The position numbers and the translations under genes are program-made. A stretch of DNA of 55,487 bases from contig BOKF01000055.1 of NCBI GenBank assembly GCA_016860845.1, positions 1-55,487 on the forward strand, in the 5' to 3' direction. The stretch comes from Chloroflexota bacterium. Lineage in GTDB: Bacteria; Chloroflexota; Anaerolineae; 4572-78; J111. Numbering within the stretch: the stretch's first letter is position 1; each line of letters opens with the position of its first letter. The notes below the pieces were generated by a model. The model ran no database searches, was not told the DNA's origin, and saw only the letters and a list, made by a program, of their open reading frames with translations. Below, piece by piece: positions 3,639 through 40,818 of the stretch.

Positions 3639-6600
3639 ATGGGCAAATATGCTCAGTCGCGCCAAAGGCTAAAACATTCCTCCCCTCGATCCATTCCGGC
3701 CCCTACCTTACCCCTCCCTGCAGTTCAAAGCGCCCGCCGTACGTCCTATACCGGCTTGGGGGTTGTCCTGCTGATTTTCCTGATCCTGGCGACTCTCTAC
3801 AGTCTGGTTGTCCCCATCACCCAAGGCGAAGACGAACTGGCCCACTATCGCTACCTCAGCTTTATTGCCCAGACAGGCCGCTTGCCCCAGAATGCCGCCG
3901 AACGCCAGCAGGCCTGGTATCGCGCCGATTGGCCGCCCCTGTACCATTTGCTGGTGGGCTGGGCCGTCAGCCCGCTCGATACCACCCGCCCGCCGCTCAA
4001 AGATGTAGGCGAGTCGCCCCGGCGGCGGCTGGTGGGCGAAATCTTTTACCCTCGCCTCATCATTTACACCGAAGACGCCAACTGGCCCTGGCAGGATGGC
4101 ATCCTGGCCTGGCACCTGGGGCGGTTCATCTCGATTATCTTTTCAGCCGGAGCGTTGGTTTTTACGTATCTTACCGTTTTAGAAATTTGTAGAGGAGGCG
4201 AGGAGGCGAAGAAGCGAGGAGGCGAAGGGCAAGAATCTAAAGTCATCGCTCCATCGCCTCACTTTTCTTCGCCTCCCCCCGCCTCACTCTTGGCTTTAGC
4301 CGTTACCGCTCTCCTGGCCTTCACCCCCCGCTTCCTCTTCACCTCGGCTATGCTCGGCGACGACAGCCTGTTTATCCTGCTTTCGGCTATTTTCATTTGG
4401 CTGCTCCTGCGAGTTGCGCGCGGTGACGAGCGCTGGCAGCTTTATGCGCTTATCGGCCTGGTGCTGGGGCTGTCCGTTGTCACCAAGTACAGCACCGGCC
4501 TTTTGCCGCTGGCCGTTATTCCGACGGTGATCTGGCGGGCCGGGCAGGCCGGCTGGTCCTGGAGACGGGCCTCAGGCCGGGTAGCGCTGACCTGGCTATT
4601 TACGCTCATCGGCGCAAGCTGGTGGTTTGGCTGGATTGGCTACTACTTTAACACCGTCAAAACAGACGGCCTGTTTTTTGGCCTGCTCAAACCCTTGCTG
4701 GCCTCCGGTCCCGATGTGAGCATGCGCCGCGTCTTTGCCGTCTTTGGCGGCGGTGAATTTACCGGCCTGGAACGCCCTGGGGCCATCGCCGCCGGTACCT
4801 TCTGGGGCTGGCTGACCTACCTCTTTCAGACGTTTTGGGGTGTGCCGGTGTTGGAACACGACCCGTTCTTTCCCTGGGGCTACCTGATTATCCTGCTTTT
4901 CTGTCTCCTGGCGCTGGTTGGCTTGTGGCAGTTCTGGCGCACAGCAACAGCAGAACTGCGGATTATATTGGGACTACTGGGCTTGGTGGTCGCTCTCCTT
5001 TTACCCTTCCCGATCCTGCGTTTCTTTCTGACCCGCAACATCCTGGAAACCGGCCAGGGCCGCCACCTGCTCTACCCCGCCGCCCAGGCCATCCCGATCC
5101 TCCTGGTCCTCGGCTGGGCCGTGCTGGCAAAGAAGATTGAAGACAGCAAACAGAGTCTATCTGGCAATACCTCCGCTGTTCTCCATCCCCTATCCTCTAT
5201 CCCCTATCCTCTATCTTCTATCCTCATCTTCTTACCATCTCTCCTACTGCTCCTCTGGTCGCTCTTCCAGCTTGGCTATATGGCGGTCGCTTACCCCGCC
5301 CCTCTGCCGGTGCGGACAACCACCTTTGACTCGGCTTCAATTCCGCAGCCCTTAAAACACAATTTTGGCGAGGCAATTCAACTTTTGGGTTACGACTTTG
5401 TGCCCGATGCCGAACAGGCAACGGTTAATTTGACCCTTTTCTGGAAGTCGCTCAAACCCGTGGGCGAAAATTATCGGGTCCAGGTGCAGTTGGTTGACAA
5501 CGCCGGCCGGCCTCACTTTACCTGGCTCAGTCACCCCCTGAATGGGCGCTATCCAACTCGGGCCTGGGATAAAGGCGATGTCATTCGTGATACCCTGCCC
5601 TTGCCTCTGGCCGCCGTGCCGGCCAACCGCTACGACCTGCGACTGAACCTGCTCCGCGAAGCTGAAGATACCCCGCTGGCCGGCGAGCCGCTTGAATTTA
5701 TTCAGATTCCCCTGGTCGCTCAGCCGCCGATCCCTGGCTCAACCCGCCTGGGCGGCGCTGTTGATTATCGCCTCTGGGTTGGCGATACTCCGGCTCGCCC
5801 GCGCCAAACGCTGCCCCTCTCCTGGAGCTACGCCGACGCCTCGGCTGCGGCCCAATCGTCGCTGTCTGGCTTCCAGTCACGCGCACCCCAACCTGCCTGG
5901 GCTTTGGTCGGGCCGGATGATGTCCCGCGCCTGCCCCAAGCGACCGGCGACGCGACAACCATCTTCATCGTCGGCCCCGATTGGCCCAGCGGTCCCTACC
6001 ACCTTCAGTTGGATACCGGCCAGGACAGTTACCAGACCGAACCCTTGTTGACCGTTGCCAACGACGCCCGTTTGTTTGCGCTGCCGTCCTTGCCTGCGGG
6101 CTGGACTCCGGTGGAGGCGAATTTCGCCAACCGGATTAAATTGTTGGGCTATGTCTTGCCCACCCGCCGGGTCGAGCCGGGCGGCGCTCTGCCCCTGACC
6201 CTGTCCTGGCAAAGCCTGGCTCCGGTGCTGCCCGATCTCTTGACCTATGCCGTGCTTTTGGATGCCCAACAGCAGCCCTACGGCAGCGTTGACCGCTACC
6301 CGTCCGGTTTCTACAGTCCCATGTTGTGGGCTGAGCGTGAGATTATAGTTGACTCTTTTACCGTGCCTGTTCAGGCCGATGCCCCGCCGGGTGTATACGC
6401 TTTGCACGTGGGCCAATACCAGCTCGTCAGTGGCCAGCCCCAATCGCTGGCCCTCGTCGAAGGCGGCCAAGCCGCAGATGCAACGGCGGTCGTCATTGGC
6501 CCGATCAAAGTAGGTGGACCGCCGCCGGGAGTAACGATAACTGAGGTGCAGCCTCAATTTCCCTTGAACCAATTCTTTGGCGGCCAGATTACACTGCTGG

Positions 6601-6962: not shown

Positions 6963-6987
6963 GGCGGCCTGTTGCGGGCCTGGTTCA

Positions 6988-9900
6988 ATGCGTCTTGTCC
7001 ATCACCTGAAAGATCATCTAGCCCTGGGAGTGATCTTGCTCATTTATCTCATGACTGCCACCGTCCATAGTCTGGTGGTTCCGCTCACCGCCGGCAATGA
7101 CGAGTGGGCGCATTTTCTCTATGTCCGCTTTATTGCCGAGCACGGCCGCCTGCCTGCTACCCTGGCCGAACGCGCCGAGGCCGGCTACAAAGCCGATGCC
7201 CCGCCTCTCTACCATCTGCTGGTGGCTGCCGTGACCGCCGGCGTGGAGCCGGCCCGTTTGCTCCGCCCCCTTGACTCGCCCCGCCGCCAGTTAGCCGATA
7301 ACGACCCCCGGCCCTATGCCCTGGTTCACCTCGGTTACGAACTGCCTCCCTACCAGGGCGAGGTGCTGTTGTGGCATCTGGGGCGCGGCCTCTCGATCCT
7401 GTTTGGCATGGCGCTCATTGGCCTGACCTACCTGACCGGCCTGGCCCTCTGGTCGAATCGCCGTCAAGCCTTTCTGGCGGCGGCTGTCGTCGCCTTCATC
7501 CCGGCGCTGATTTTTCACAGCTCGGTGCTGACCTACGAGAGTCTCAGCGCCGCCATCAGCGCGCTTTTCCTGCTGGTCGCCATCAAGGTGATGGGCCAGC
7601 CTCAGTGGGGGTGGGGCTGGCTGCTGTTGGGGCTGCTGGCAGGTCTATCTATTACGACCAAGTACAGCGCCGTCCTGCTGCCACTGGAGCTGGTTGGGGT
7701 GGCCGGGCTGGCCTGGCTTAAACAGCGCCACAGCCAAACCGAGCAGGCTGACCGGCTTTCGCTTATCCGTTCACTTTTTAAGCCCATCCTGACTGCTGGG
7801 CTGGGGCTGGTGGTAGCGGCAAGCTGGTGGTTTGGCTTTTTGATCTGGCATTTTAATACGGTAGACCGCCAGGGGTTGCTGGTCGGCCTGGTGCAGCCGC
7901 TGCTGGTCGGCGACGGCAGCGATACGACCTCCGTCGCCATTGCCGCCTCTCTTTTTGGCGATCAAGCGGTGGCGGCTGAGGCCCGCACGCCGCTGGCCCG
8001 CAACTATCCCCTTCTGCTGCAACTGCTGTTCGACTCTTTCTGGGCGGCTCCGGTAGCCGGGCGTTTCGTCCTGTCGCCCTGGCTGGCGCTCGTTTTTACG
8101 GCGGCAGCCGGGCTGGCCGTGGCCGGCCTATGGCGAGTTTGGCGGCAGGCCGGTCTTACCGTTCGAATTTGGCTGGCCTTGCTGATCTTGCATACTCTGC
8201 TCATTGTGCCGCTGCTGGCCGTCCGTATCCTCTTCTCCTTTGACCCGCGCGAGGTGGCCCAGGGCCGGCACCTGCTTATGCCGGCAGCGTCGGCCATTGC
8301 TCTTTTGTTGGTCTGGGGCTGGACGCGCTGGTCGGCCCGGCTGGGACAGGCTGTCGTTGCCGGGCTGCTGCTGTGGAGCGTTTTAGGCCAGGTGGGCTGG
8401 GCAGCCGTTGCTTATCCCCCGCCGCTGCCGGTTTGGCTGAAGGAAGTTCCCTCCGCTGCCCTGGCCGGCTTGCAGCCTATCAATCACACCCTGACTGGGG
8501 CCATGCGCCTGACCGGCGTCTCCTGGCGCGAAACGCTACCTGCTTCATTAGAAGTAACCCTGGGCTGGGAGTCCCTGGCGCTGCTATCCGCCGATTACCT
8601 GGTTGAATTAACCTTGCTCGATTCAACCGGCCAGCTTGTCAGCTACACTGCCGGCCATCCGGTCCAGGGCCGCTACCCCACTCGCGCCTGGGAAGCCGGT
8701 GATGTCATCCAAGATACTTATTGGCTGCCGCTGACCGGCTCCTTGCAGGGAACTTATCAGTTGCAGCTTCGTTTGCTGGATCAGTCCGGCCAGCCGCTGC
8801 CGGGAGCGGAAACTGTGCCGCTGGGGCAGGTCACGCTGGCCGGGCCGGTCTACCCGGCGCTTGACCCATGCGTGGTTTGGTTCGAGGGCCGGCCTGACTC
8901 CATCCTCAGCCAGCCTTACCGGCTGCGTTCGACCTTGACCGTGGTCAGCCCGGACCGGCCTGCCCTCAGCGCTCTGTCCGCCGAGGGGCTTCAGACAGCG
9001 CCGCCGCCGCTCCTCTCTCAAGAAAATATCCATCTTTTCCTGGTGGGACCGGATTGGTCAAGCCGCTACGAGTTGCGCCAGGGTTCGGTCCGTTGCGGCG
9101 AAGTCGAGGTTGAAGTTCTGCCGCGCAGCTTCACCCTGCCGCCTATCCCGCAGCCCTTGGCAGTTAACTTTAATAACCAGGTGCAACTGTTGGGCTACGA
9201 CCTGCCCACCCGGCGCATCCAGCCCGGTGAGCGCCTGCCCCTCACCCTGTATTGGCAGGGTCTGGCTTACATGGGCGAAGATTACCAGGTTTTTGACAAC
9301 TTGCTGGACAGCCAGCAGCGCCGCTGGGGCGGGTATGACCGCCGCCCGCGTGATGGCTACAGCACCCTGTTGTGGGCGCCGGGCGAGGTAATTACCGATG
9401 CCTTTGGTGTGCCGGTGGACCCGGCCGCTCCGCCTGGAATCTATACTCTTGACATCGGACTTTACCACAAAACCGGCTCCGGCCCGGTCTCTTTGCCGGT
9501 ACTGCAAGACGGCCAGCCCAGCGGGCAAAGCAGCCTCCGGCTGGAGCCGCTCAAAGTCGGCGGGCCGCCGCCGGGAGTGACGGCGGCTAACCCTGAGCCG
9601 CAGATTAAAGTTAACCAGAGCCTGGGGGATCAAATAACTTTGTTGGGGTATGACCTGGAAAATTGTCAACAGCCAACAGCCAATTGTCAATTGTTAATGA
9701 GGTTTTATTGGCGGGCTGAAACCATCCCCGCCGCCGATTACACCACGTTTTTGCACCTGCGTGATGCGGCTAATAAAAATGTGGCCCAAAAAGACAGCCC
9801 ACCGGCAGCGGGTCGTTACCCGACCAGCCTCTGGGATGCCGGCGAAGTCATCGTGGATGAAATCACCCTGTCTCTGGCGGAGGCGCCGCCAGGACGCTAC

Positions 9901-10002
9901 ACGCCGGTAGTCGGCCTGTATAACCTGGCTACGGGTGAGCGATTGGCTGTGCCGGGCAATCCGGCCAACGAAATTGCTTTGGAGCCGGTTGAACGACCTT
10001 GA
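6988..10002 (+). CDS. Giant GT-C-like membrane protein with three C-terminal beta modules (paralog 2 of 7)
   Basis: 1004 residues. TM1 comes early, then D38-E39 in GNDEWAHF and the ADAPPLYHLL block of the first outer loop. Additional TM helices extend to about 480, with AQGRHLLMPA near the end of the membrane part. Beta modules begin near 504, 725 and 880. The second carries the full consensus (LTLYWQGL, GGYDRRP, LLWAPGEVI, APPGIYTLDIGLY). Between modules 1 and 2 lies a spacer with FLVGPDWSS, shared by the paralogs. Probable extracytoplasmic glycan transfer or polymerisation; specificity unknown. It starts 25 nt after the first paralog and its TGA overlaps the TTG start of the next gene, implying one transcript and coupled translation. 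A heptanucleotide array interrupts module 3 at 9661-9695. Confidence 0.85.
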   Translation: MRLVHHLKDHLALGVILLIYLMTATVHSLVVPLTAGNDEWAHFLYVRFIAEHGRLPATLAERAEAGYKADAPPLYHLLVAAVTAGVEPARLLRPLDSPRRQLADNDPRPYALVHLGYELPPYQGEVLLWHLGRGLSILFGMALIGLTYLTGLALWSNRRQAFLAAAVVAFIPALIFHSSVLTYESLSAAISALFLLVAIKVMGQPQWGWGWLLLGLLAGLSITTKYSAVLLPLELVGVAGLAWLKQRHSQTEQADRLSLIRSLFKPILTAGLGLVVAASWWFGFLIWHFNTVDRQGLLVGLVQPLLVGDGSDTTSVAIAASLFGDQAVAAEARTPLARNYPLLLQLLFDSFWAAPVAGRFVLSPWLALVFTAAAGLAVAGLWRVWRQAGLTVRIWLALLILHTLLIVPLLAVRILFSFDPREVAQGRHLLMPAASAIALLLVWGWTRWSARLGQAVVAGLLLWSVLGQVGWAAVAYPPPLPVWLKEVPSAALAGLQPINHTLTGAMRLTGVSWRETLPASLEVTLGWESLALLSADYLVELTLLDSTGQLVSYTAGHPVQGRYPTRAWEAGDVIQDTYWLPLTGSLQGTYQLQLRLLDQSGQPLPGAETVPLGQVTLAGPVYPALDPCVVWFEGRPDSILSQPYRLRSTLTVVSPDRPALSALSAEGLQTAPPPLLSQENIHLFLVGPDWSSRYELRQGSVRCGEVEVEVLPRSFTLPPIPQPLAVNFNNQVQLLGYDLPTRRIQPGERLPLTLYWQGLAYMGEDYQVFDNLLDSQQRRWGGYDRRPRDGYSTLLWAPGEVITDAFGVPVDPAAPPGIYTLDIGLYHKTGSGPVSLPVLQDGQPSGQSSLRLEPLKVGGPPPGVTAANPEPQIKVNQSLGDQITLLGYDLENCQQPTANCQLLMRFYWRAETIPAADYTTFLHLRDAANKNVAQKDSPPAAGRYPTSLWDAGEVIVDEITLSLAEAPPGRYTPVVGLYNLATGERLAVPGNPANEIALEPVERP
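9661..9695. repeat. Heptanucleotide array in the third beta module (five units)
   Basis: Five 7-nt units (AATTGTC and AACAGCC types) encoding NCQQPTANCQL, at the same loop and with the same 35-nt length as in paralogs 1 and 4. Confidence 0.8.
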
Positions 10003-12620
10003 AACGTTATAAAATTCTCTTACCCCTGATTTTGCTGGCTTTTTTCCTGCGCGTCTGGCAGCTCCCGGTCACGCCGCCCGGCCTGTGGTACGACGAAGCC
10101 TACTACTCGATGGATGCGGCCTGGCTGCTCGACGGCGGGCCGTGGCGGCTTTTTTTTGCTGGCAACAACGGCCGCGAGCCGCTGTTTATCTATTTGCAAA
10201 GCCTCTTTATCTGGCTCTTTGGGGCCCAGCCGTTGACCTCGCGGCTGCTTGGGCCGCTGGTCGGCACGCTGACCGTGCCCGTTGTCTATGTGCTTGCCCG
10301 CCGCCTGACCCGTGGCCGGCAATCCACCCCTTGGCCCCTGGCCCCTGCCCCCTACTGGCTGCCCTACGTAGCGACCGCCGGCCTGGCGACCTCGTTCTGG
10401 CATATTGGCCTGAGCCGGGGTGGGTTCCGGGGCATCTTGCTGCCGTTGGCAACCGGGCTGGTTTTTTATGCCTTTTGGCGCGGCTGGCAACCCCCCCTGA
10501 AAGGGGAGGGAATAAGGGGGAGGTGGATGGCGCTGGCCGGGCTGGCCCTGGGTCTCAGCCAGTACACCTATCTCTCCGCCCGCGCCCTGCCCCTGGTTTT
10601 TGCCGCCTTCGCCCTGGTTTGGACAGCCCTCTACTGGTTTAACCCAAATCGCCAGCCTTCCAGCCTTCCAACCCTCCCTTTCTCCCGTCTCAAAACCCTT
10701 TGGCTGGAGCTGGTGCTCATGGCGATTATCGCCGCAGCGGTTTTTGCCCCGCTCGGCTGGGTTTTTTACCAGAACCCGGCTCTGTTCTCAGCCCGCACCG
10801 GCGACGTCCTCTTTACCCCCGATTCTCCCGCCGACCTGTTCCAACACCTGTTCGCTGCACTGCGTCTCTTTGTGGATGGGGGCGATCCCAACTGGCGGCA
10901 TCATCTGCCGGGCCGGCCGATGCTGGGCTGGCTGGGCTGGCTCGGTTTCTGGCCCGGCCTGGTCCTCTGCCTGCGCCACCCTCGCCGCAGCGCCTACCTG
11001 TTCTTGGTGATCGCCCTGCTTATCCTCTTTTTACCCGCCCTTCTGGCCGTCCCACCCATCCATGCCCTGCGTCTCTCCGCCCTCTTGCCGGTTTATTATC
11101 TTATTTTTGCATTGGGCCTTATGGAAGTTCCACGCTTCACGCTTCACGCCTTACGCACCACGCACCACACACCCCGTATCATCGCCGTCACCCTCACTGC
11201 CGTCCTTCTCCTCGAAACCGGCCTGACCTTCTTTGACTACTTCTACCGTTGGGCCAGGGCCGAAGAAACTTACGTCGAGTACAACGGCCCGCTGGTGGAT
11301 TTCGTCAGTGAGGTTGTCGAGCAGACCAACCAGACTGCCGTGGCTATCCCCTTTCAACTGTACGTCCATCCGACCACCCGCTACCTGCTGCACGATTATT
11401 TTACCGAGCAGCCCGCTCCTGCCGATCTCTCCGGTCCGGTGCGCCTGGTGACGCTGCCCAACGATTTTCGCATGCTCAATGTCGGCAACATCCCGACCTC
11501 GCCGGCCTGGGTCTGGCTGACCCGCCGGAGTGACGGTCGCGGAGCAGCTTACGTCTCCCGCCCGCCGCGCCCGGCTGAACAAGCCTACCTGGATGGCCCG
11601 CTGGCGGCGCTTACCCCGGATGTCTATCGTGACCGCTTTGGCCGGGAATTAGCTCAGTGGCGCACCCTGCCTGACCCAGCCCCGTTGTTGCCCCTGTTCA
11701 CCGCAACAGCCCCCGAACGCACCATCACCCTCAACTGGGCCAACCTGGCCGAACTGACCGGCTATGACGTGCTGCCAGCGGTCATCAAGCCCGGCCAGCC
11801 GCTGACCCTTAACCTCTACTGGCGCAGCCTGACCGACACCACCTTTGACGAGCGCCTGTTTCTGCAACTGATTGACCGCGCCGGCAATCCGATCAACCAA
11901 TGGGAGGGTGAGGCCTTCCGCGAAGACATGTACCGCTGGCGGCCCGATGGTATCCTGCCCAGCCAGCACATTCTCTGGGTGGGTCCCGAGGCCGCCCCCG
12001 GCCCCTACCTGGTCCGCCTGGGCTTTTTTGACGACCGAACAGGCCGGCGGCTGCCGATTATTAAGGCTGAAGGCGGAGGGCTGAAGGATGAAGGGCAGAA
12101 TTATTCTTCATTTCATCCTTCATCCCTCATCCCTCATCCTTTCCCTGACCAAATCCAGCTCGGCCTGTTCTACATCTCCCTTGATGGGACCGATCCGCGC
12201 CTGCCCGCTGCTCCCCTCTCCGCCACCTTCGCCGACTCCATCCAACTTATCGGCGTGACCTTGCCTGCCATTGACAATTCACCATTGACAATTCACAATT
12301 CACAATTACCTGTGACCTTCCACTGGCAAACCCTCCAGCCCACCGACCAGCCCTACACCGTCTTTCTGCAACTGCTCGACGAGCAGGGCCAGGTGGTCAG
12401 CAGTTGGGACAGCCAGCCCTTTAACGGTCTCTACCCGACCGACCTCTGGTCCCCCGGCGAAACCATCGCCGATACCTTCGCCTTGCCTCTGCCGGAAGCG
12501 GGACTCCCCCCCGGCCGCTATCGCCTCATCACCGGCTTCTATGATGTCGGCAGCGGCCAGCGCCTGCCCGTCGCCAGCGGCGGCGATTTTGCCGAATTAG
12601 CTCAATTTTCCGTGGAATAA
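9999..12620 (+). CDS. GT39/PMT-type glycosyltransferase with two C-terminal beta modules (paralog 3 of 7)
   Basis: 873 residues. It differs from its neighbours in the membrane core. The first loop has PPGLWYDEAYYSMDAA (D32-E33) and then GREPLFIYLQSL, the hallmark of ArnT/PMT_2 (GT39-like, GT-C fold) enzymes, which transfer a sugar from a polyprenyl-phosphate donor on the outer face. About ten or more TM helices run to residue 410; an extracytoplasmic domain follows, then two beta modules near 579 and 741. The start is TTG overlapping the upstream TGA. Short-repeat inserts occur at 10652-10675, 11131-11165, 12075-12139 and 12269-12310, plus a G/C-run insert near 10480-10525. Donor and acceptor are unknown. 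Whether it acts on the same glycan as its neighbours is inference from co-transcription. Confidence 0.87.
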   Translation: MKRYKILLPLILLAFFLRVWQLPVTPPGLWYDEAYYSMDAAWLLDGGPWRLFFAGNNGREPLFIYLQSLFIWLFGAQPLTSRLLGPLVGTLTVPVVYVLARRLTRGRQSTPWPLAPAPYWLPYVATAGLATSFWHIGLSRGGFRGILLPLATGLVFYAFWRGWQPPLKGEGIRGRWMALAGLALGLSQYTYLSARALPLVFAAFALVWTALYWFNPNRQPSSLPTLPFSRLKTLWLELVLMAIIAAAVFAPLGWVFYQNPALFSARTGDVLFTPDSPADLFQHLFAALRLFVDGGDPNWRHHLPGRPMLGWLGWLGFWPGLVLCLRHPRRSAYLFLVIALLILFLPALLAVPPIHALRLSALLPVYYLIFALGLMEVPRFTLHALRTTHHTPRIIAVTLTAVLLLETGLTFFDYFYRWARAEETYVEYNGPLVDFVSEVVEQTNQTAVAIPFQLYVHPTTRYLLHDYFTEQPAPADLSGPVRLVTLPNDFRMLNVGNIPTSPAWVWLTRRSDGRGAAYVSRPPRPAEQAYLDGPLAALTPDVYRDRFGRELAQWRTLPDPAPLLPLFTATAPERTITLNWANLAELTGYDVLPAVIKPGQPLTLNLYWRSLTDTTFDERLFLQLIDRAGNPINQWEGEAFREDMYRWRPDGILPSQHILWVGPEAAPGPYLVRLGFFDDRTGRRLPIIKAEGGGLKDEGQNYSSFHPSSLIPHPFPDQIQLGLFYISLDGTDPRLPAAPLSATFADSIQLIGVTLPAIDNSPLTIHNSQLPVTFHWQTLQPTDQPYTVFLQLLDEQGQVVSSWDSQPFNGLYPTDLWSPGETIADTFALPLPEAGLPPGRYRLITGFYDVGSGQRLPVASGGDFAELAQFSVE
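10652..10675. repeat. Intragenic octanucleotide array
   Basis: Three 8-nt units (CCAGCCTT, CCAGCCTT, CCAACCCT) inside the GT39-like gene. The same word recurs at 39985-40068 in the YfhO-like gene. Confidence 0.7.
11131..11165. repeat. Intragenic heptanucleotide array, five units
   Basis: Five 7-nt units beginning CACGCTT, drifting to CACGCAC, in a loop before a TM helix of the GT39-like protein. The CACGCTT word also occurs at 17777-17804. Confidence 0.8.
12075..12139. repeat. Intragenic heptanucleotide array with short inverted arm
   Basis: Five 7-nt units (TTCATCC/CTCATCC type) at 12105-12139, preceded by a GAAGGATGAAGGG stretch near 12083 that can pair with them. In frame, between the two beta modules. 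Confidence 0.75.
12269..12310. repeat. Heptanucleotide array in beta module 2 of the GT39-like protein
   Basis: Six 7-nt units alternating CATTGAC and AATTCAC types. They encode an insert between the LIGV and VTFHWQ strands, the same loop as the arrays in the third modules of paralogs 1, 2 and 4. The words are the reverse-complement family of AATTGTC. Confidence 0.8.
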
Positions 12621-12630
12621 TTTTTTTATT

Positions 12631-12658: not shown

Positions 12659-12711
12659 GCGCCGAGGCAGAATGACCACCGACCGCAGATGGCGGACGGC
12701 TGTAAAAACTA

Positions 12712-15700
12712 ATGGAACCAAACAGCTTTCAAACTCAAGACTCAACATTCGAAAATACAACCTCTCAACCCCAGACCCTTGTCCCCAAAATCGAAAATCA
12801 AAAATACCCAAAGGGTACGATGTCGAAAATCGAAAATCTGGCCCTGGTTTTGCTCCTCATTCTCTATCTTGCCACCGCCTTGGCCTACGCCGTCCTGGCC
12901 CCCCTGACCACCGGCCCGGACGAATTGGCCCATTACGAATACGTCCGCTTTATCGCCGAGCATGGCCGCCTGCCGCTCAACGCCGAGGAACGCCGCCAGG
13001 CTAGCTACAAATCCGACCAGCCGCCGCTCTATCACCTGCTGGCGGCGCTGCCCGCTGCCCTGGTTGACCCCAGCGGCCCGCCCTTTCTCAAGCGTTACAA
13101 CGACCATCCCCGCCGCCAATTGATCGAGCGCACCCGCCACGCCTGGGGCCTCTACAACACCGAAGACGAGCGCTGGCCCTACCGCGCCGAAATCCTGCGC
13201 TGGCACACCGGCCGCTGGGTCGCCATCCTCTTCGGCGCAGCAACAGTAGCCGTGACATTTTTTATTGCCCGTAACCTATTCTCTTCACTCCCTCCCCCTT
13301 CCAGGGGGAGGGTTGGGGAGGGGGTCACCGCCCCACCTCTGGAAAAGGCTGGACCGGGGGTCTGGCCGCTCGCCCTCCTTTCCGCCGCCGTGGTCGCCTT
13401 CATCCCCCGCTTTGGCCTGACCGGCTCGATGCTCAACTACGAAACCACCGTCGCTTTCTTTGCCGCCCTCTTTCTGTGGACTCTCCTGAGAATAGCAGAT
13501 AGCAAATGGCAGGTGGCAGATAGTGAAGAGGCGAAGCAGCCAGCCACGTACTACGCATCACGCATCACGCATCACGCATCACGCATCACGCTTCCCCTCC
13601 TCCTCGGCCTTTTCGCCGGGCTGGCGATTCTGACCAAACTCAGCGCCCTTATCCTGCTGCCGGAAATTGTGGTGGCCTTCTGGCTGATCGGGCGCACTGG
13701 CAAAACTGAAGGCGCCCCTTCTACCTGGCTGCGCGGGGCATTCATCGCTTTGGCAGCCGCCTTTCTCGTGCTGAGCCTTTGGTTCGGCTTTGTCCTGGCC
13801 TACTTCAATACCGTCGCCGATGACGGGTTGTGGGTCGGCCTTTTGCGGCCTCTCGTCGCCGCCGACGCCAGCGACGCGACCACCAACCGCTTGTTGAGTT
13901 TTCTCACCGAGGGCCAGGCCGGCTTTACCGGCGCTATTGAGAATCTCCAGTCCGGCCCGCCCTGGGAATGGGCCAGGATTGCCTTTCGCACCTTTTGGCT
14001 GGTGCCCATTGAAACCGTGCACCCGCTCGCCCCGGCCGCCCTGGTTGTTGCTCTGGCCTTGTGCCTCTTGGCCCTCTTTGGTTTGTTGCGATCCTTCCTT
14101 ATTGACGGCCGACCGCTGACCACTGACCGCCGGCAAACAACCTCTGATCAACCCCCAACCCCTTACTCCCTACTCCCTACTCCCTACTCCCGTTTAATCC
14201 TGCCCCTGCTGGTATTGCACCTCCTCATGCCCTTAATCCTGCCCCTGTTGCGCTACGCCGCCACCTTCAGCCTGGCCGACACCGCCCAGGGCCGCCACAT
14301 CCTCTTCCTCGCCGCCCCTGCTTTCGCTATCCTATTAATTGGGGGTCTAAATAACACTGCTGATCATATAATGCGCATCACGCATCACGCATCACGCATC
14401 ACGCATCACGCATTACGCTCCCTCCCCTTCCTCTCCGTTCTCCTTCTCCTCATCTGGACCGCCGCCCATCTCTGGACGATGACCTGGGCCTATCTGCCCC
14501 CGCTGCCCGTCTCGACTCTGCCGCAGGCCAAAGCGCAGGCGGCCCACGCTCTCGACCGACCGCTCAACAAGTTTGTCACCCTGGCCGGCTACACCAGCCA
14601 GCTTGACCCGGTGGGTCGAGTCCTGCGTTTGGACCTTATCTGGCAGGCGACAGCCCTTAGCCCGGTAGATTATCTAACCGAGATCAGCCTGGTTGACGCC
14701 CAGGCGAAACTGCAAGCGCAGTGGCTGGGTTATTCCGCCGGGGGCCGTTACCCGACCCGCGCCTGGGATGTGGGTGACATTATCCGTGACACGGTTTGGC
14801 TGCCCGTGGAAGGGCTGGCAGCGGGGCCGTACCAACTCAGGCTTAAATTCATTCCGACCAGCCAAACTTACCCGCCTGAGGTGGAAGCAGCCCCTCTCGC
14901 GCTGAACGACGTGACTCTAACCGAGACAGCTTTGCGTACCTTCAACGGCAGCCTGGCCTTTGCCAATCAGGCTGCCGCCGCTTCCGGTTATTCGGTCTGG
15001 CAAAATGGGCAAACCCTGTTTGGCCCGCATGAATTTCGCTACCGGGAAACCGTCCTGGTCACACTCAGCCCCCTGCTCCCCGACCAGCAGCGCACCGTCC
15101 ACCTCATTGGCCCTGATCCTAACCGCGTCTTCACCCCGGTGCGTGAATTCAACGATACGGCCCTGTTCATCGTCGGCCCCGACTGGCCGGGTGGAGATTA
15201 TCATCTCCAGGTTACGCTTACTTCCTCCACGGCTGACCCGCAGCAGGTCAATTCCAGTAAAATCCTCAGCGTGGTTGATCGCTGGGGACGGCAATTTGCC
15301 CTGCCTGCTCTCCCCCCCTCGCAGGGAGGGATGAAGGGGGGGTATGTTGGGGTTGAGGCCAATTTTTCCAATCAGGTCAAGTTACTTGGCTACAACCTGG
15401 GGGTAAACCGCGCCGAGCCAGGCGGCGGCATTCCCTTGACCCTCTATTGGCAGGGCCTGGATTGGCTGGGTAATGATTACACCATCTTTACCAAGTTGAT
15501 TGCAGCCCAGCCCAACTCGGGCGATGGCGCCAGCCCACCTGTCTACGGCGGGCGGGACCGCCTGCCCCAGGAAGGATATCGCACCCTCTACTGGGCGCCC
15601 GGCGAAATTGTCGCCGATCCCTTTGGCGTGCCGGTGGCAGCGAATGCGCCGGATGGCGTTTACTATCTGCACGTGGGGCTGTATCACCAGGTTGAACAGG

Positions 15701-16236
15701 GGGCCGTTTCGCTGCCCCTCGTCCAGAATGGCCAGCCGGTTGGTGCGACCAGTGTGACGATTGGCCCGCTTAAGATCGGCGGGCCGCCGCCTGGCACAAC
15801 CCTGACCACGGCCACACCGGAAACGGAGGTCAACCAGCCTTTTGGCGAGGGATCGAATGTGACTTTGTTGGGTTATGATTTGGAAAGGGACAATTGTCAA
15901 CAATCAACGGTCAATTGTCAATTGTCAATCAGACTATATTGGCGCAGTGAAGCGCCTCTGCCGCTTGATTACACCACCTTTGTCCACCTGCGTAATGCGG
16001 CGGGTGAGACCGTCGCTCAGAAGGACCAGCCTCCCCTCGACGGGGCTTACCCCACCAGCCTGTGGGACCCCGGCGAAATCATTGCCGACATCGTTACCGT
16101 CTCTCTGCCGGCGGACTTACCGGCAGGAACTTACCAGCTTGTGGTTGGTCTCTATGATTTTAATACGGGCCAGCGGCTGGCGGCGCCGGGTAGTCCTGCT
16201 AATGAGGTTAGCCTGACCAGTGTTCAAGTCCCTTAA
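12712..16236 (+). CDS. Giant GT-C-like membrane protein with three C-terminal beta modules (paralog 4 of 7)
   Basis: 1174 residues from this ATG. The first 36 residues are low-complexity, encoded by 7-nt periodic DNA. A second in-frame ATG at 12820 (AAAGGG upstream) starts directly before TM1, as in the paralogs, and may be the true start. The first loop has D70-E71 in GPDELAHY and SDQPPLYHLL. TM helices run to about 600, with AQGRHILFL near the end. Beta modules start near 618, 881 and 1044. It carries the most repeat inserts of the set: 13495-13522, 13553-13594, 14104-14131, 14163-14190, 14373-14414 and 15892-15926, plus G/C-run inserts near 13290-13335 and 15305-15345. Function is predicted as for the other paralogs. 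It overlaps the next gene by 17 nt. Confidence 0.85.
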   Translation: MEPNSFQTQDSTFENTTSQPQTLVPKIENQKYPKGTMSKIENLALVLLLILYLATALAYAVLAPLTTGPDELAHYEYVRFIAEHGRLPLNAEERRQASYKSDQPPLYHLLAALPAALVDPSGPPFLKRYNDHPRRQLIERTRHAWGLYNTEDERWPYRAEILRWHTGRWVAILFGAATVAVTFFIARNLFSSLPPPSRGRVGEGVTAPPLEKAGPGVWPLALLSAAVVAFIPRFGLTGSMLNYETTVAFFAALFLWTLLRIADSKWQVADSEEAKQPATYYASRITHHASRITLPLLLGLFAGLAILTKLSALILLPEIVVAFWLIGRTGKTEGAPSTWLRGAFIALAAAFLVLSLWFGFVLAYFNTVADDGLWVGLLRPLVAADASDATTNRLLSFLTEGQAGFTGAIENLQSGPPWEWARIAFRTFWLVPIETVHPLAPAALVVALALCLLALFGLLRSFLIDGRPLTTDRRQTTSDQPPTPYSLLPTPYSRLILPLLVLHLLMPLILPLLRYAATFSLADTAQGRHILFLAAPAFAILLIGGLNNTADHIMRITHHASRITHHALRSLPFLSVLLLLIWTAAHLWTMTWAYLPPLPVSTLPQAKAQAAHALDRPLNKFVTLAGYTSQLDPVGRVLRLDLIWQATALSPVDYLTEISLVDAQAKLQAQWLGYSAGGRYPTRAWDVGDIIRDTVWLPVEGLAAGPYQLRLKFIPTSQTYPPEVEAAPLALNDVTLTETALRTFNGSLAFANQAAAASGYSVWQNGQTLFGPHEFRYRETVLVTLSPLLPDQQRTVHLIGPDPNRVFTPVREFNDTALFIVGPDWPGGDYHLQVTLTSSTADPQQVNSSKILSVVDRWGRQFALPALPPSQGGMKGGYVGVEANFSNQVKLLGYNLGVNRAEPGGGIPLTLYWQGLDWLGNDYTIFTKLIAAQPNSGDGASPPVYGGRDRLPQEGYRTLYWAPGEIVADPFGVPVAANAPDGVYYLHVGLYHQVEQGAVSLPLVQNGQPVGATSVTIGPLKIGGPPPGTTLTTATPETEVNQPFGEGSNVTLLGYDLERDNCQQSTVNCQLSIRLYWRSEAPLPLDYTTFVHLRNAAGETVAQKDQPPLDGAYPTSLWDPGEIIADIVTVSLPADLPAGTYQLVVGLYDFNTGQRLAAPGSPANEVSLTSVQVP
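12721..12842. repeat. 7-nt periodic leader around the alternative starts of paralog 4
   Basis: Degenerate 7-nt periodicity, clearest at AAAATCG, AAAATCA, AAAATAC (about 12788 on) and CGAAAAT twice near 12822-12836. It spans the two candidate start codons at 12712 and 12820. Confidence 0.55.
13495..13522. repeat. Intragenic heptanucleotide array, four units
   Basis: Four 7-nt units of the type GCAGATA/GCAAATG, just upstream of the ACGCATC array at 13553, in a loop of paralog 4. Confidence 0.7.
13553..13594. repeat. Intragenic ACGCATC array, six units
   Basis: Five exact ACGCATC units plus one ACGCTTC variant, encoding the 7-residue periodic peptide ASRITHH. The same word is found at 14373-14414 and 39069-39145. 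Confidence 0.88.
14104..14131. repeat. Intragenic heptanucleotide array, four units
   Basis: Four 7-nt units of the type GACCGCT/GACCGCC. The same word family is at 18439-18466. Confidence 0.75.
14163..14190. repeat. Intragenic heptanucleotide array CTACTCC, four units
   Basis: Units TTACTCC then CTACTCC three times, in the same loop as the preceding array, immediately before a TM helix. Confidence 0.85.
14373..14414. repeat. Intragenic ACGCATC array, six units
   Basis: GCGCATC, four exact ACGCATC and one ACGCATT, encoding RITHHAS-type peptide before the last TM helix of paralog 4. Confidence 0.88.
15892..15926. repeat. Heptanucleotide array in the third beta module (five units)
   Basis: Five 7-nt units (AATTGTC, AACAATC, AACGGTC types), encoding NCQQSTVNCQL at the loop also occupied in paralogs 1 and 2. 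Confidence 0.82.
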
Positions 16237-25100: not shown

Positions 25101-25284
25101 TTCCCTGTGGGACCCTGGTGAGATCATCCCGGATACCGTTACTGTGCCTTTGCCGGCAGAACTACTGCCGGGAGAATACACCCTGGCGGTCGGGCTGTAC
25201 GAGGCGGCTACGGGGCAGCGTTTGCCTGTCCCGGCCTCGGCGGGGGATAACAGCCTGCGCCTGCCTGCGGTCAGTCTCCCGTAA
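22192..25284 (+). CDS. Giant GT-C-like membrane protein with three C-terminal beta modules (paralog 7 of 7)
   Basis: 1030 residues. A second ATG at 22201, with GATAGGG upstream, is an equally good start. The first loop has D40-E41 in APDEYVHF and ADQPPLYYGL; TM helices run to about 475. The QGRH block is changed to AQARYLVFSA. Beta modules lie near 496, 749 and 904. Module 3 reads GYDLDIQAGQLRLTLYW with no repeat-derived insert, so it shows the uninterrupted form of the loop that carries arrays in other paralogs. A terminator-like hairpin follows at 25325. Last intact gene of the run; predicted glycan transferase or polymerase with an extracellular carbohydrate-binding-like tail. Confidence 0.85.
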   Translation: MIGMKQAKLPQAGLLILVIGIYTGLAWFNSLNIPLSKAPDEYVHFRYIRFIVENGRLPQTNVERQATGYKADQPPLYYGLVALVTSWIKTDDPPTLKMTWDSPRRKLIDLVLPRAMIVRTEDETWPYAGIVLAWMVGRWLSILMGIVTIILVYLVTAEIFPTQPDLALAAAATLAFIPCFTYISAVLSDENLLGVVVGLYFWGLVRFSKGQRDSWTFMVLGLLMGLAVITKYSAVVLPLEFLLVLAVLARRRPWPWRRWAQGLVTIAIAGVFASGGWFLFQAWYFNRAGEFGPVAGVIRPLIAGDESLPGVGLLAGILTGTASAADRFEPEMQGSLWTWLVAIFTKFWVVEIVGAQPPFPPLLTVSLMLGVVLIAGVGWWLIWRRYQGQERDWLGLLLLHLFIFVPIPLLRFLLSGRINDTAQARYLVFSAAPAIGILLAWGIAVVAREKYRHWALLCLVGVMASLSGVSAYHFWTGFPAPLPVRTDAMLAVSPRQPLSIRFNDGFELTGYDQQISGDGSTLQVRLYWRSLAYAHEDYETHLSLLDNKGQVVAVTAAQPAQGRYPVRAWDPGDAIHDVIALPLTGILPGSYQVRLRLRGWETWLKTTDGAEAVILTQVDLPAPAEGKTSPQHVLAGKSLKGFSVWNKGRLAGRLPLYRYLADIPITIDPFPLQGQVQLWLVGPDNQRRPPVTAAGPLQTFIVEYDWPSGEYRLEAEVEAAHSVLERVESEPVLRVENKPWSFQPPAMGHRLEANFDDKILLLGYDLPLRRVQPSEGLPVLLHWQALQRMREDYVMFVRLLDADQQVWGGYDRLPQETYSTILWVPGEVVSDGFVVPIKGDAPKGMYYLALGFYDLQESQPVSLPLVQNGSPTEETRVLIGPVKVGGPPPGVTLDRFTPQVVRDDPFGDNPIIRLKGYDLDIQAGQLRLTLYWQSEMQTEIDYTRFVHLRDPQDQTVAQSDGLPGGGSYLTSLWDPGEIIPDTVTVPLPAELLPGEYTLAVGLYEAATGQRLPVPASAGDNSLRLPAVSLP

Positions 25285-29378: not shown

Positions 29379-29406
29379 CTGTCTGCCGTCTACTGTCTAC
29401 CGTCTA
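29379..29406. repeat. Intergenic heptanucleotide array, four units
   Basis: CTGTCTG, CCGTCTA, CTGTCTA, CCGTCTA in the 126-nt gap before the UDP-sulfoquinovose synthase gene. The remainder of the gap holds an AAAGGGAGG ribosome binding site and a short imperfect hairpin near 29330-29360. Confidence 0.75.
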
Positions 29407-29432
29407 CTATTTTCAAAGGGAGGATTACTCAA

Positions 29433-34438: not shown

Positions 34439-34439
34439 T

Positions 34440-34631
34440 AAATTTTGGCCTGCCAGGGCCGATTTTTTGGTTAATGGCAGGCACACGCAGGGCAAATTCA
34501 ACCAGCAGTAACCTAATGCTCAAGCTTATGATGACAAGACCGATATTGACCAGGAAGCGTTTCAGCGAAAGACCTTTAGCGGGGTGGGCAAAGATGCGGC
34601 CTAGTTTAAACCAGTTGCCTTTAACGGCCAA
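34440..34631 (-). pseudogene. Possible remnant of an SGNH-hydrolase N-terminus, antisense orientation
   Basis: On the minus strand, in the 210-nt gap between methyltransferase and membrane protein, a frame reads GRIFAHPAKGLSLKRF then an N-terminal TM-like stretch ending LLLVEFALRVPA. That is the typical anchor of membrane-bound SGNH hydrolases (a TM followed by E-x-x-LR). It then runs into sequence that is coding on the other strand. No convincing start or downstream domain exists. A chance ORF cannot be excluded. An inverted repeat GCCTGCCA/TGGCAGGC lies at 34448-34482. Confidence 0.3.
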
Positions 34632-34648
34632 ATTCTAGGCAGTGAACA

Positions 34649-37189: not shown

Positions 37190-37192
37190 CCG

Positions 37193-38239: not shown

Positions 38240-38268
38240 CTCGCAGGCGCCTCATTCGATATGAAACA

Positions 38269-40818
38269 ATGACTCAGGCAGCCCGTCACTCAAAACTAAA
38301 CAACTGGTCACATTACTGGCCCGACGCCGCCCTGCTGGTGCTGTTAGCTCTCCTGCCCGGCCTCTTTTTCTGGCGACTCTTCACCCCTAACCCCGCCGAC
38401 CGCATGGCTGTCGCCGCCGGTGATTTCACCGAGCAATACTTCCCGCTGCGAGCTTTCGCCGCCCAGGAGTGGGTGCGCGGCCAGATTCCCCTCTGGAATC
38501 CTTACCTCTTTGGCGGCCAGCCGGCCCTGGCCGATATCCAGTCCGGGGCCTTATACCCGCCCCACCTCCTGGAAAGCTTGATTCTTGGCTGGAGCGGCCT
38601 CGGCTTTCCGTTATGGGCCTTAGAATTACAGGTTATGGCTCACTTTTCTCTGGCAGCAGTCGGAACCTACCTTTTTGCCCGCGATTCTTTTCTTCATCTC
38701 TGCGCTGCCTCTCCGCCTCGCTTCTCCGCTCCCCTCCGGCGAGCGCGCTTCGGCGCGGTTATGGCTTCGCTCACCTTTACTTACGGCGGCTACCTGACCG
38801 GCTTCCCGGTGCAGCAAATCACCATTTTAGAAGCCAGCGCCTGGCTGCCCTGGGTGTTGTGGGCCGTCAGCAAATCAGCAAATCAGCGAATGGCGAATAG
38901 TGAATGGCGGTTAGCCGGCAATCCTGTCTCCCGTTCCCTTTCTCCCCTGCTCCTCTGCTCCCCTGCTCCTTATTGGGGCGCGCTCGTTTTCGCCCTGGCC
39001 ATCCTGGCCGGCCATCCGCAAACGGTGCTGTATATCTTCTACCTCAGCCTGGCCTACTTTTTGTATTTACGATTTACGCATCACGCATCACGCATCAGAG
39101 CGAAGCCTCCCCTTGGGACGCATCACGCATTACGCATTACGCATTATGTTTCCCGCCTCCTCGCCTCTCTCATCCCCTGGCTCATCATCGTGCTTCTCGG
39201 CGCGGCGATTGCCGCTGCCCAGCTTTTGCCCACCCGCGAATTTATCGCGCACTCGCTGCGGGCCGACCTCTCCTATCAGGCCGTCTCCGCCGGGCTGCCG
39301 CTGAACGAGGCCATTGCTGTCCTCTATCCCGGCTTTTTTGGCGGTTCGCCGCAGTATGTGGGGATCGTTTCGCTGGTCCTCATTGCGCTGGCCTTGTCAG
39401 TCCGACCCCCAACCGCCGGTCCCCGGCCCCCTCTTGTTTTCTGGGCCGGCGCCGGTCTGGTCGGCCTGCTGCTGGCTTTTGGCGGCCGTACTTTTCTATA
39501 TCCTCTCTTTTACCTCTTTTTGCCCGGTTTTGAGGCGGTCCGCCAGCAGGAACGCGCCTTTCTGATTTACAGTTTCAGCGCCGCCATCCTCACCGGCTGC
39601 GGGGCGCTGGTTCTGGCCGGGCCGCTGGCCAAATCTGCCCGCGCCGCCTTGACCCTGTTTGAGCGCCGCCTGTGCCGGGTTGCCGCCGTCGCCCTGGCCC
39701 TGACCGCCTTTTTTATTTACGGTTCGGCTGTCTCCAGCGCTCGCGGCGATGAAGTCAACCTCTTCTACGGTGTTTTGTGGCACCACCTTTTTGGTTTGCT
39801 GATCCTCGGCGGCATGCTGGTCCTGCTCATGCTTCGCTCCCGGCACTGGCTGCGCCGGCCCTGGGGCATGGCCCTGGTCGCGCTCTGGCTCATCTTCAAC
39901 CTGTTCACCGTCAACTGGCGTTTTAATTTGGAAAAACCTGTCACCCCACCCCCCTTCACCCCTAATGGCGTGACCCAGTTTCTTCAAACCAACCTTCCAA
40001 CCTTCGAGCCGGAGGCCCCCTATGGGCAACCTTCCAGCCCTCCAACCTTCCAGCCCTCCAACCTCCCCACCCGCATCGCCAGCGGCGGACTCCTCCCCGG
40101 CGGCAACAGCGCCGCCTCGGTTTATAAGCTGCAAGATTTGACCGGCAACACCCCGCTGCAACTGGCTTCCGTCGAGAGCTTTATGCGGCAGATGCCCGCC
40201 TGGCGCTTGTGGCAGTTGCTCAGCGTCCGCTACGTGCTGGACAAGCGCAACATCGCCGATGCCGGCCTGCGTCTCGTTTTTGAGGAAGGCGACCTCAAAG
40301 TGTTCGAGCTGGGCGACCCCTTCCCTCGCGCCTGGTTGGTGGGGAATGTCGAAATCGTGCCCGATGACCAGCAGGCCATCACCCGCCTGGGCAGCGATGC
40401 TTTTGACTTGCGCCGGACAGCCGTGGTCCCCACTCCCCTCGACCTGCCTCCCAGCGACCCCGCGGCTTCGACCGTGACCCTGCTGGAAGCTGACTCCACC
40501 CACCTTAAGGCCGAGACCAACGCCTCCGCCCGGCAGTTGCTGGTTTTTAGCCAGATTTATTACCCCGGCTGGCAGGCCAAACTTGACGGCCAGCCGGCAG
40601 ACCTGCTGCGGGTCAATGTCGTCCAGCAGGGTCTAGTTGTTCCGGCGGGGCAGCATACGGTGGAACTGGTGTTCAGCCCGGGGAGTTTTTGGCTTGGAGC
40701 GGCTATTTCGGTCATTGCCATGCTCATTTGCCTGGGGTTGTTGGTTTGGAGCAGCAGGCCGGGCCAGAATCAAAAAGCCTCGCGGTTGTGGGCGAGGCTT
40801 TTTGTCGGTCTGATATAA
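38269..40818 (+). CDS. YfhO-like polytopic membrane protein
   Basis: 849 residues. TM1 (20-36) is followed by GDFTEQYFPLRAFA, then GQIPLWNPYLFGGQPALAD and a GALYPPHLL segment, the signature of YfhO-family membrane proteins. YfhO of Bacillus is linked to lipoteichoic acid glycosylation. The C-terminal soluble part ends with YYPGWQAKLDGQ, VVPAGQHTVELVFSPGSF and a last TM helix, also typical. Repeat-derived inserts occur at 38867-38910, about 38925-38972, 39069-39145 and 39985-40068. An intrinsic terminator hairpin is embedded in the final codons. Last gene of the plus-strand glycan region; convergent with the KaiC-like gene, 5 nt between stops. Confidence 0.85.
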   Translation: MTQAARHSKLNNWSHYWPDAALLVLLALLPGLFFWRLFTPNPADRMAVAAGDFTEQYFPLRAFAAQEWVRGQIPLWNPYLFGGQPALADIQSGALYPPHLLESLILGWSGLGFPLWALELQVMAHFSLAAVGTYLFARDSFLHLCAASPPRFSAPLRRARFGAVMASLTFTYGGYLTGFPVQQITILEASAWLPWVLWAVSKSANQRMANSEWRLAGNPVSRSLSPLLLCSPAPYWGALVFALAILAGHPQTVLYIFYLSLAYFLYLRFTHHASRIRAKPPLGTHHALRITHYVSRLLASLIPWLIIVLLGAAIAAAQLLPTREFIAHSLRADLSYQAVSAGLPLNEAIAVLYPGFFGGSPQYVGIVSLVLIALALSVRPPTAGPRPPLVFWAGAGLVGLLLAFGGRTFLYPLFYLFLPGFEAVRQQERAFLIYSFSAAILTGCGALVLAGPLAKSARAALTLFERRLCRVAAVALALTAFFIYGSAVSSARGDEVNLFYGVLWHHLFGLLILGGMLVLLMLRSRHWLRRPWGMALVALWLIFNLFTVNWRFNLEKPVTPPPFTPNGVTQFLQTNLPTFEPEAPYGQPSSPPTFQPSNLPTRIASGGLLPGGNSAASVYKLQDLTGNTPLQLASVESFMRQMPAWRLWQLLSVRYVLDKRNIADAGLRLVFEEGDLKVFELGDPFPRAWLVGNVEIVPDDQQAITRLGSDAFDLRRTAVVPTPLDLPPSDPAASTVTLLEADSTHLKAETNASARQLLVFSQIYYPGWQAKLDGQPADLLRVNVVQQGLVVPAGQHTVELVFSPGSFWLGAAISVIAMLICLGLLVWSSRPGQNQKASRLWARLFVGLI
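38867..38910. repeat. Intragenic octa/heptanucleotide array in the YfhO-like gene
   Basis: TCAGCAAA twice, TCAGCGAA, then GAATGGC-type 7-nt units. A pyrimidine-rich stretch follows to about 38972 that shares GCTCCTCTGCTCCCCTGCT with the hairpin in paralog 5 (17193-17210). Confidence 0.7.
39069..39145. repeat. Double ACGCATC array in the YfhO-like gene
   Basis: ACGATTT plus three ACGCATC (39069-39096), a 21-nt unique stretch containing GAGCGAAGC, then ACGCATC plus three ACGCATT (39118-39145). It shares its unit with the arrays of paralog 4. Confidence 0.85.
39985..40068. repeat. CCAACCTT-type array in the YfhO-like gene
   Basis: CCAACCTT units, a short unique stretch, then two copies of a 15/16-nt compound unit (CCTTCCAGCCCTCCAA), encoding Pro/Ser/Thr-rich peptide in the extracytoplasmic part. 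Confidence 0.75.
40772..40803. terminator. Bidirectional terminator inside the end of the YfhO-like CDS
   Basis: A 12-bp perfect stem AAAAAGCCTCGC / GCGAGGCTTTTT with an 8-nt loop. It encodes the last residues of the plus-strand protein and lies 20 nt before the stop of the minus-strand gene, so it can end both transcripts. Confidence 0.85.

Follow-up and report, generated by a model that had tools for sequence, protein, structure and literature searches.

The DNA analysed here is a stretch of 55,487 nucleotides (nt) of contig BOKF01000055.1 (assembly GCA_016860845.1) from a Chloroflexota bacterium of the class Anaerolineae, hereafter the window. It encodes a family of large polytopic membrane proteins resembling GT-C glycosyltransferases and YfhO, and the reading frames of these genes contain short tandem arrays with units of 7 or 8 nt, which an initial annotation had taken for possible contingency loci of the surface-glycan machinery. 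An array was counted as strict if it had at least nine consecutive matches at lag 7 or 8, neighbours being merged, and Tandem Repeats Finder added degenerate ones. The window holds 21 merged strict arrays, every one within six genes (starts 3639, 6988, 9999, 12712, 16220 and 38269); tandem arrays with a unit length that is not a multiple of three do lie inside open reading frames (ORFs) here. Runs at lag 7 in 16 coding sequences (CDSs) of the window numbered 17, against a mean of 0.14 and a maximum of 2 in 50 codon shuffles, and runs at lag 8 numbered 6, against 0.08 and 1, and a chance origin of the window arrays is excluded. Each array named in the initial annotation was recovered within about 20 bases of the place given for it.

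For comparison we used DNA of three related genomes, of which the Anaerolineales metagenome-assembled genomes G001 (H5_CFX7, hereafter G1) and G002 (H5_CFX5, hereafter G2) are the closest two and G010 (G10) is the third. These were samples of 1.0, 0.6 and 0.4 Mb, respectively, not whole genomes, and as the sampled regions were picked to take in family loci and long neighbouring stretches, the absolute densities reported below hold for the samples only. The GT-C/YfhO family comprises the proteins that phmmer matched to any of nine window proteins with an E-value of at most 1e-5. The G1 sample contains orthologues of seven family genes, six at 82–90% identity and that of 22192–25284 at 72%, with none for 6988–10002; the G2 sample likewise contains orthologues of seven, at 63–75% identity, with none for 22192–25284.

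All six array-bearing genes, and their arrays, are on the forward strand. The first (3639–6962) encodes a GT-C (PMT_2) glycosyltransferase-like protein of 1107 amino acids (aa; PF13231, E 1.6e-7) with orthologues in G1 and G2. It carries an 8-nt array, GAGGAGGC, at 4192–4225, where both relatives have an array at the same column, and a 7-nt array of CTCTATC/CCCTATC (the YCTATCC array of the annotation) at 5181–5225, in a block of 57/57/57 nt in window/G1/G2 (the order used throughout) with differing words. The next gene (6988–10002; PMT_2, 1004 aa; PF13231, E 4.1e-6), with an orthologue in G2 and none in the G1 sample, has a CAACAGC array at 9667–9683 in its C-terminal part, which comparison with the paralogue modelled below suggests to be a beta module. 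The GT-C-family gene at 9999–12620 (873 aa) has five strict arrays: CCCCTGG at 10332–10347, replaced by another word in G2; the 8-nt array CCAGCCTT at 10652–10670, in a block 24 nt (three units) longer than that of G1; CACGCTT at 11131–11149, drifting to ACGCACC by 11168, in a block of 63/63/63 nt; TTCATCC/CTCATCC at 12112–12141; and AATTCAC at 12270–12307, where G2 has an array of CTACTCC type.

Five strict arrays are also found in the 1174-aa GT-C-fold gene at 12712–16236. Its arrays comprise TCGAAAA (12823–12838), at the N-terminal tail and start of the first helix; ACGCATC (13553–13591, 5.6 units), at the inner end of helix 281–308; a degenerate GACCGCC array (14104–14134; the CGACCGC of the annotation) in inner loop 466–490, with a block of 45/45/45 nt and the word GGAGACC in G2; CTACTCC (14164–14191, 4 units), in the same loop and the start of the next helix, with a block of 42/42/42 nt and CTACTAC in G2; ACGCATC again (14374–14418, 6.4 units), in inner loop 557–570, with ACGCCTC in G2; and CAATTGT (15891–15929), in the extracytoplasmic beta region. 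The PMT_2 gene at 16220–19537 (1105 aa; PF13231, E 1.5e-8), again with five strict arrays, has an ACRYTTC stretch around 16818–16873, whose strict core (ACATTTC/ACGTTTC, 16839–16865) lies in a block 42 nt (six units) longer than that of G1. Further along it has the 8-nt arrays GCCGGAGC (17133–17158), one containing GCTCCTCTGCTCCCCTGCT (17180–17211) and TCGCTCCC (17600–17618); CACGCTT (ACGCTTC in the annotation; 17783–17803), whose block is 21 nt (three units) longer in G1; and GACCGCC, or CGACCGC (18440–18467), identical in word and length in G1 and without an array in G2.

The sixth gene (38269–40818) encodes a YfhO-family membrane protein of 849 aa (PF09586, E 1.3e-8) with four strict arrays. 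It contains the 8-nt arrays TCAGCAAA (38867–38887) and CTCCCCTG (38942–38969), ACGCATC (39076–39097; block 21 nt, or three units, longer than in G1), ACGCATT (39118–39146), and 8/16-nt arrays CCAACCTT and CAACCTTCCAGCCCTC (39989–40064) on either side of a repeat piece containing CCCTATGGG. The recurrence of words across genes reported earlier is real: the 19-mer GCTCCTCTGCTCCCCTGCT, present at 17193, stands again within CTCCCCTG at 38950. Pieces with GAGCGAAGC, CCCTTGGG or CCCTATGGG also lie between or beside heptamer arrays in the same loops (window 16770, 39098–39117 and 40018), and CCCTATGGG occurs at 3.0 per 100 kb in family genes, 0.3 in other CDSs and 1.6 in intergenic DNA (5 sites each).

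One protein of the family, that of the 12712 gene, was modelled. A PDB sequence search with the family profile gave no matches, and beta-rich proteins of low TM-score headed a first Foldseek listing; when the same structure chains were aligned with the model by VIA-align, the GT-C membrane fold was evident. In the ArnT-like GT-C fold the N terminus is inside, and on this basis the arrays of the membrane domain are predicted to face the cytoplasm. In the window, G1 and G2 orthologues alike, array residues map in the model to putative cytoplasmic loops, to adjoining parts of helices, or to the beta region, and none maps to the predicted outer loops (186 residues). Of the 93 array residues of the window protein, 71 are in stretches of poor conservation; such stretches total 182 of its 1174 residues. 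We know of no loop arrays of this kind in the GT-C glycosyltransferases ArnT, AglB and PMT, from which the present proteins also differ in the large extracytoplasmic beta region attached to them.

The arrays are not peculiar to this locus, but are spread through the sampled parts of the related genomes, including intergenic DNA. Period 7 has the highest count among lags 2–30 in CDSs and in intergenic DNA alike (G1, 0.8 Mb; G2, 0.4 Mb), a dominance that also characterizes heptanucleotide short tandemly repeated repetitive sequences (STRRs) and long simple sequence repeats (LSSRs). In the three relatives pooled, GT-C/YfhO genes have 72.8 arrays per 100 kb (111 arrays, 39 of 57 genes), against 6.0 in other genes with at least four transmembrane (TM) segments (13 arrays, 11 of 159 genes), 4.0 in few-TM genes of at least 600 aa (16 arrays, 11 of 154 genes), 5.4 in shorter few-TM genes (49 arrays, 43 of 1052 genes) and 38.0 in intergenic DNA (123 arrays). 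The depletion of coding relative to intergenic DNA that is a trait of STRRs and LSSRs thus holds for other genes and fails for the GT-C/YfhO genes. By genome, the family and intergenic densities are 47.3 and 12.1 in G1, 111.2 and 78.4 in G2, and 61.1 and 48.5 in G10, and the ratio of family to other-membrane density is 12.2 (bootstrap 6.9–27.9). Counted inside and outside CDSs, the arrays are therefore not equally dense elsewhere, and their concentration in genes of this type, first proposed from the window, recurs in each of the three relatives.

The enrichment belongs to the polytopic GT-C/YfhO family, not to glycan genes at large. As a statement about surface-glycan genes, the initial annotation is right for the six GT-C/YfhO genes and too broad beyond them: the 22 called non-family genes of the window, GT2, epimerase, methyltransferase and GDSL genes among them, contain no array by the strict detector. 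Four of the ten window genes counted in the family (one of them a 111-aa ORF) are also without a strict array. In family CDSs lag 7 reaches 69.1 per 100 kb, against 5.0 for lag 6 and 5.6 for lag 9 (lag 7 in other CDSs, 4.1). Because the frame-preserving lags are so rare beside lag 7, the array period looks to be dictated by a process acting on DNA rather than by selection on coding.

The words themselves form a restricted vocabulary. Counted over the window, G1 (0.8 Mb) and G2 (0.4 Mb), with rotations and strands merged, 186 period-7 arrays use 70 words, against 166.5 for random genomic 7-mers (minimum 154 in 500 draws), and 65 period-8 arrays use 36, against 64.2 (minimum 61). Identical words at many loci are again a mark of STRRs and LSSRs, and 96 of the 186 period-7 arrays use a word common to at least two genomes. 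Within genes, 225 of 247 arrays are free of stop codons in the sense direction and 130 of 247 in antisense (random 7-mers, about 77% on either strand). Among 301 Chloroflexota genomes sampled evenly across the phylum, 16 contain the word ACGYNTC in three copies and 4 contain a reversed control word; G1 has 34 (overlapping) matches to ACGYNTC and none to the control. Two of the four genomes with the control word, G265 (11 matches) and G295 (16), have none to ACGYNTC, which suggests that they use a different heptamer dialect.

Called genes are open frames by construction and their openness alone is no test, and so the frames were tested by tblastn with family proteins over 2.06 Mb (samples plus window, consensus assemblies only). 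This search covered 45 array-bearing family genes (39 of 57 in the three relatives and 6 of 10 in the window), and was extended to 15 further loci (two overlapping), where 13 of the 41 ORFs of at least 600 aa carry arrays. No frame-shifted (OFF) allele at an array was found among family genes in either set by this search, which misses breaks with one side at or below 60 bits (2.06 Mb) or 45 bits (15 loci). One frame-broken family gene was found in the 2.06 Mb and one in the 15 loci, and the junctions of both hold a homopolymer and no array. These broken genes, at 40715–43800 of G001:C1 (T run) and about 6030–6110 of L139 (C run), reflect either assembly error or true mutation.

Arrays in family genes have a median length of 22 nt, a 90th percentile of 40 nt and a longest merged length of 115 nt (n=132), and so are not the long uninterrupted arrays typical of contingency loci; they fall in every tenth of gene length, several per gene. 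Two proteins of the 12712 gene (P0002 and P0003) that are 99.7% identical, and were taken as one species, differ by no indel, although this is a single pair. The G1 protein of the 9999 gene was recovered as one sequence from two contigs, a small sample that fits stability.

Alignment of five genes between the window, G1 and G2 showed that array positions are shared between species far above expectation: 13 of 23 coincide between the window and G2 (2.24 expected, maximum 8 in 2000 permutations), 8 of 23 between the window and G1 (1.04 expected, maximum 5), and 9 of 12 between G1 and G2 (1.24 expected, maximum 5). Length polymorphism in sister genomes, which the initial annotation proposed to look for, was found at 9 of the 17 sites where two or three of the species have an array; at the other 8 the block length is equal in all three. 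Equal length can go with a changed word, as in a block of 63/63/63 nt with ACGCTTC, ACGTTTC and ACGTATC and one of 42/42/42 nt with CTACTCC, CTACTCC and CTACTAC, and wholly unrelated words may occupy one site in different species (AATTCAC and CTACTCC, for example). Several unequal sites, some with an array in only one species, show differences of exactly 21, 42 or 63 nt (15/36/78; 51/72/51; 72/30; 39/18; 33/12), and others differ by 3–18, 24, 27, 30, 51 or 54 nt; three-unit steps are common but not exclusive.

The same step is visible among proteins. In a set of 240 homologues (the best 120 of 129 and the best 120 of 349), 58 pairs at 80% identity or above gave 168 distinct simple indels, with 16, 24 and 9 of sizes 6, 7 and 8, and 2, 9 and 1 of sizes 13, 14 and 15. 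At 70–80% identity there are peaks at 7 residues (85; neighbours 65 and 49) and 21 (18; neighbours 5 and 2), and none at 14 (18; neighbours 28 and 15). The inserted peptides include repeat-type ones such as THHASRITHHALRS and SRFTLHA, and the excess of 7- and 14-residue indels in close proteins corresponds to three-unit steps. The detection threshold inflates the identity between units within arrays (0.84–0.85, against 0.69 for window–G2 and 0.86 for window–G1), and we do not count this figure as proof of homogenization.

We suggest that the arrays are part of a genome-wide hepta- and octanucleotide repeat load of this group of uncultured Anaerolineales, filtered by the reading frame, which acts as a slow builder of loops and not as an on/off switch, and we consider this reading probable, if by no means assured. 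Arrays would grow, shrink and homogenize through slipped-strand mispairing, possibly with gene conversion. Neither 7 nor 8 is divisible by three, so that an array of either unit encodes one repeating hepta- or octapeptide whichever frame it is read in; selection would therefore spare changes that are compensated or come in steps of three units, and would remove those of a single unit. A stop-free word would let an array sit in a loop, where a three-unit change would add or remove one heptapeptide, and the net outcome would be a slow, frame-preserving construction and rewording of loops. The position, length and indel data fit such a frame-filtered repeat load, in which slippage itself is the presumed step.

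Several observations weigh against this reading. Family genes are denser in arrays than intergenic DNA (72.8 against 38.0 pooled; 47.3 against 12.1 in G1), which simple tolerance does not predict, and many of the differences at the nine unequal sites are not multiples of three units. The site-for-site swap of one vocabulary word for an unrelated one is more than slippage alone accounts for. The indel peaks are weaker at 70–80% identity and gone at 60–70%, and because the inserted peptide was the sole criterion for removing duplicates, a single event may have entered the count several times in sliding versions. Finally, genes were called by our own heuristic of ORFs and codon usage. The excess of GT-C arrays over intergenic DNA is partly explained by loops that tolerate insertions together with the cost of losing a single unit inside a frame; a plausible addition is that single-unit deletions would be harmless outside genes and selected against within them.

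One rival reading is a purely neutral sink, in which arrays arise everywhere by mutation and persist where insertions are tolerated, the GT-C loops being the most tolerant coding sites. The arrays of the one gene examined do fall mostly in its least conserved stretches, they are frequent in intergenic DNA, and the repeat pieces CCCTATGGG and CCCTTTGGG likewise have a higher density in family genes than in other CDSs, on counts of only 5 and 7. Yet the family density exceeds the intergenic one although loops are only part of each gene, and the kept positions and lengths suggest some constraint on the loops, so that we regard a purely neutral origin as unlikely. A bolder version of events, to which we give little credence, is that a lineage-wide heptamer vocabulary is actively rewritten and spread between loci with a preference for cytoplasmic loops of GT-C proteins; frame-preserving three-unit steps would then amount to a built-in, slow diversification of the glycan machinery that passes through brief OFF states, and the arrays would be to contingency loci a counterpart locked in frame.

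Contingency loci proper, in which slippage in unit number would turn each GT-C gene on or off and so phase-vary the surface glycan, have a described precedent. The neuO gene of the Escherichia coli K1 prophage CUS-3 has a poly-psi variable-number tandem repeat of 3–53 units in 64 genomes, 42 of them OFF (PMC13001214). As here, the heptanucleotide units are part of the reading frame of an enzyme that modifies a glycan, one heptapeptide corresponds to three units, and unit numbers not divisible by three shift the frame (PMC13001214, PMC3046976). Heptanucleotide repeats in a glycan-enzyme CDS are therefore not new in themselves. Units of 7 and 8 nt inside frames of glycan-type enzymes, the marked enrichment in the GT-C/YfhO family of three relatives and the change of array length over evolution would all suit such a switch. 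The differences are considerable: neuO has one array near its start codon, whereas here several short and often degenerate arrays of many words are spread along each gene, with a median of 22 nt and none found OFF. No array-site break was seen in the 45 array-bearing family genes of the 2.06 Mb or in the 15 further loci, the near-identical protein pair has no indel, block lengths are often kept between species, being equal in all three at 8 of 17 shared sites, and the membrane-domain arrays of the model lie on the probable cytoplasmic, not the outer, side. We therefore think it quite improbable that the arrays are switches.

In Haemophilus influenzae, too, hepta- and octanucleotide arrays are tied to surface genes, and one heptanucleotide array is reported within an hmw1a ORF that has a frameshift, but those arrays are longer (e.g. 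13–38 units) and vary in unit number from strain to strain, which is not seen here (PMC2651432).

Least likely is a dedicated process copying heptamer words between unlinked loci with GT-C loops as preferred targets, as the small word set recurring at many loci, the replacement of one word by an unrelated one at a site and the excess of identical-word pairs within genomes (553, against 338.9 with shuffled labels, maximum 401 in 2000) are offset by the inclusion of neighbouring arrays in that count, by sharing within G1 (1.4%) that barely exceeds sharing between G1 and G2 (1.2%) once pairs closer than 3 kb are dropped, and by the failure to find an enzyme or flanking element. With the same pairs dropped, sharing is 2.8% within G2, 3.0% within G10, and 0.5% both for G1–G10 and for G2–G10; the within-genome signal is weak for G1. 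A longer mobile element carrying the arrays was also considered and set aside: the over-represented 14-mers outside arrays and 10-mers in family genes, described below, mainly have the look of other features, and no flanking element turned up, though array flanks were not compared systematically.

The repeat load resembles the STRRs and LSSRs of cyanobacteria, Xanthomonas and Beggiatoaceae, in which heptamers are likewise prominent genome-wide, with few units, rich in intergenic DNA and patchy among lineages (PMC4692102, PMC4679880); it differs in that those repeats are reported as over-represented outside genes (PMC4692102), whereas here one gene family is denser than intergenic DNA and evolves with its frame preserved. 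Heptanucleotides are described as the most abundant long simple repeat in most genomes surveyed, which is credited, together with the idea of polymerase slippage, to Mrazek and co-workers, and units of multiples of three are given as likeliest in coding regions (all in PMC4679880); triplets also prevail in prokaryote CDSs in a survey of units of 1–9 bp (PMC12699852), the main text of which does not contain the terms 'Chloroflexota', 'Chloroflexi' or 'heptanucleotide'. A mild heptamer excess in Chloroflexi is already in print: for at least three tandem heptamers, the scores of eight genera have a median of 1.00, where the scale runs from -4 to +4 (PMC4060949). That survey gives a whole-genome category score per phylum, and its accessible part does not treat the Anaerolineales group, the words, the gene family, the frame or the loops.

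Among the top-ranked matches in the open-licence PubMed Central literature there was no report of heptanucleotide arrays inside Chloroflexota genes, and none of the published systems compared here, as far as these sources extend, has a polytopic family whose genes each carry several short arrays that are stable in frame. Richer in arrays than intergenic DNA, with frames kept, changes in heptapeptide steps and rewording at constant length, the GT-C/YfhO family offers a natural system for asking what makes 7 the leading period, by what route words spread between loci, and whether membrane enzymes can be tuned by repeats that do not turn them off. The family likewise carries a warning that non-triplet arrays in surface genes should not be taken for phase variation unless OFF alleles are seen.

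Other repeats were noted along with the arrays. Over-represented 14-mers outside arrays in the G1 and G2 samples look mainly like CRISPR repeats, differ between the genomes and reach 35 and 78 copies, and over-represented 10-mers in family genes mainly resemble, again by appearance, conserved protein motifs. Some heptamer arrays form inverted pairs, which could fold into long hairpins whose two arms carry one and the same repeat (e.g. CGTGATGCGTGATGCG...CGCATCACGCATCACG); there are eight over all samples, including those at 1167223–1167274, 1173926–1173980, 1290505–1290558 and 1418767–1418810 of G002:C2. Five of the eight are intergenic, two coding and one mixed, and direct pairs number eight intergenic and three coding; a role of the inverted pairs as terminators was considered, for which the counts are too small to support a claim. 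Within the window, Tandem Repeats Finder also reported an intergenic 7/14-nt array of CTGTCTA between two glycan genes (29379–29408), and positions 1194–2528 encode a single protein that joins a metallo-beta-lactamase-fold domain (PF12706) to a C-terminal STAS domain (PF01740).

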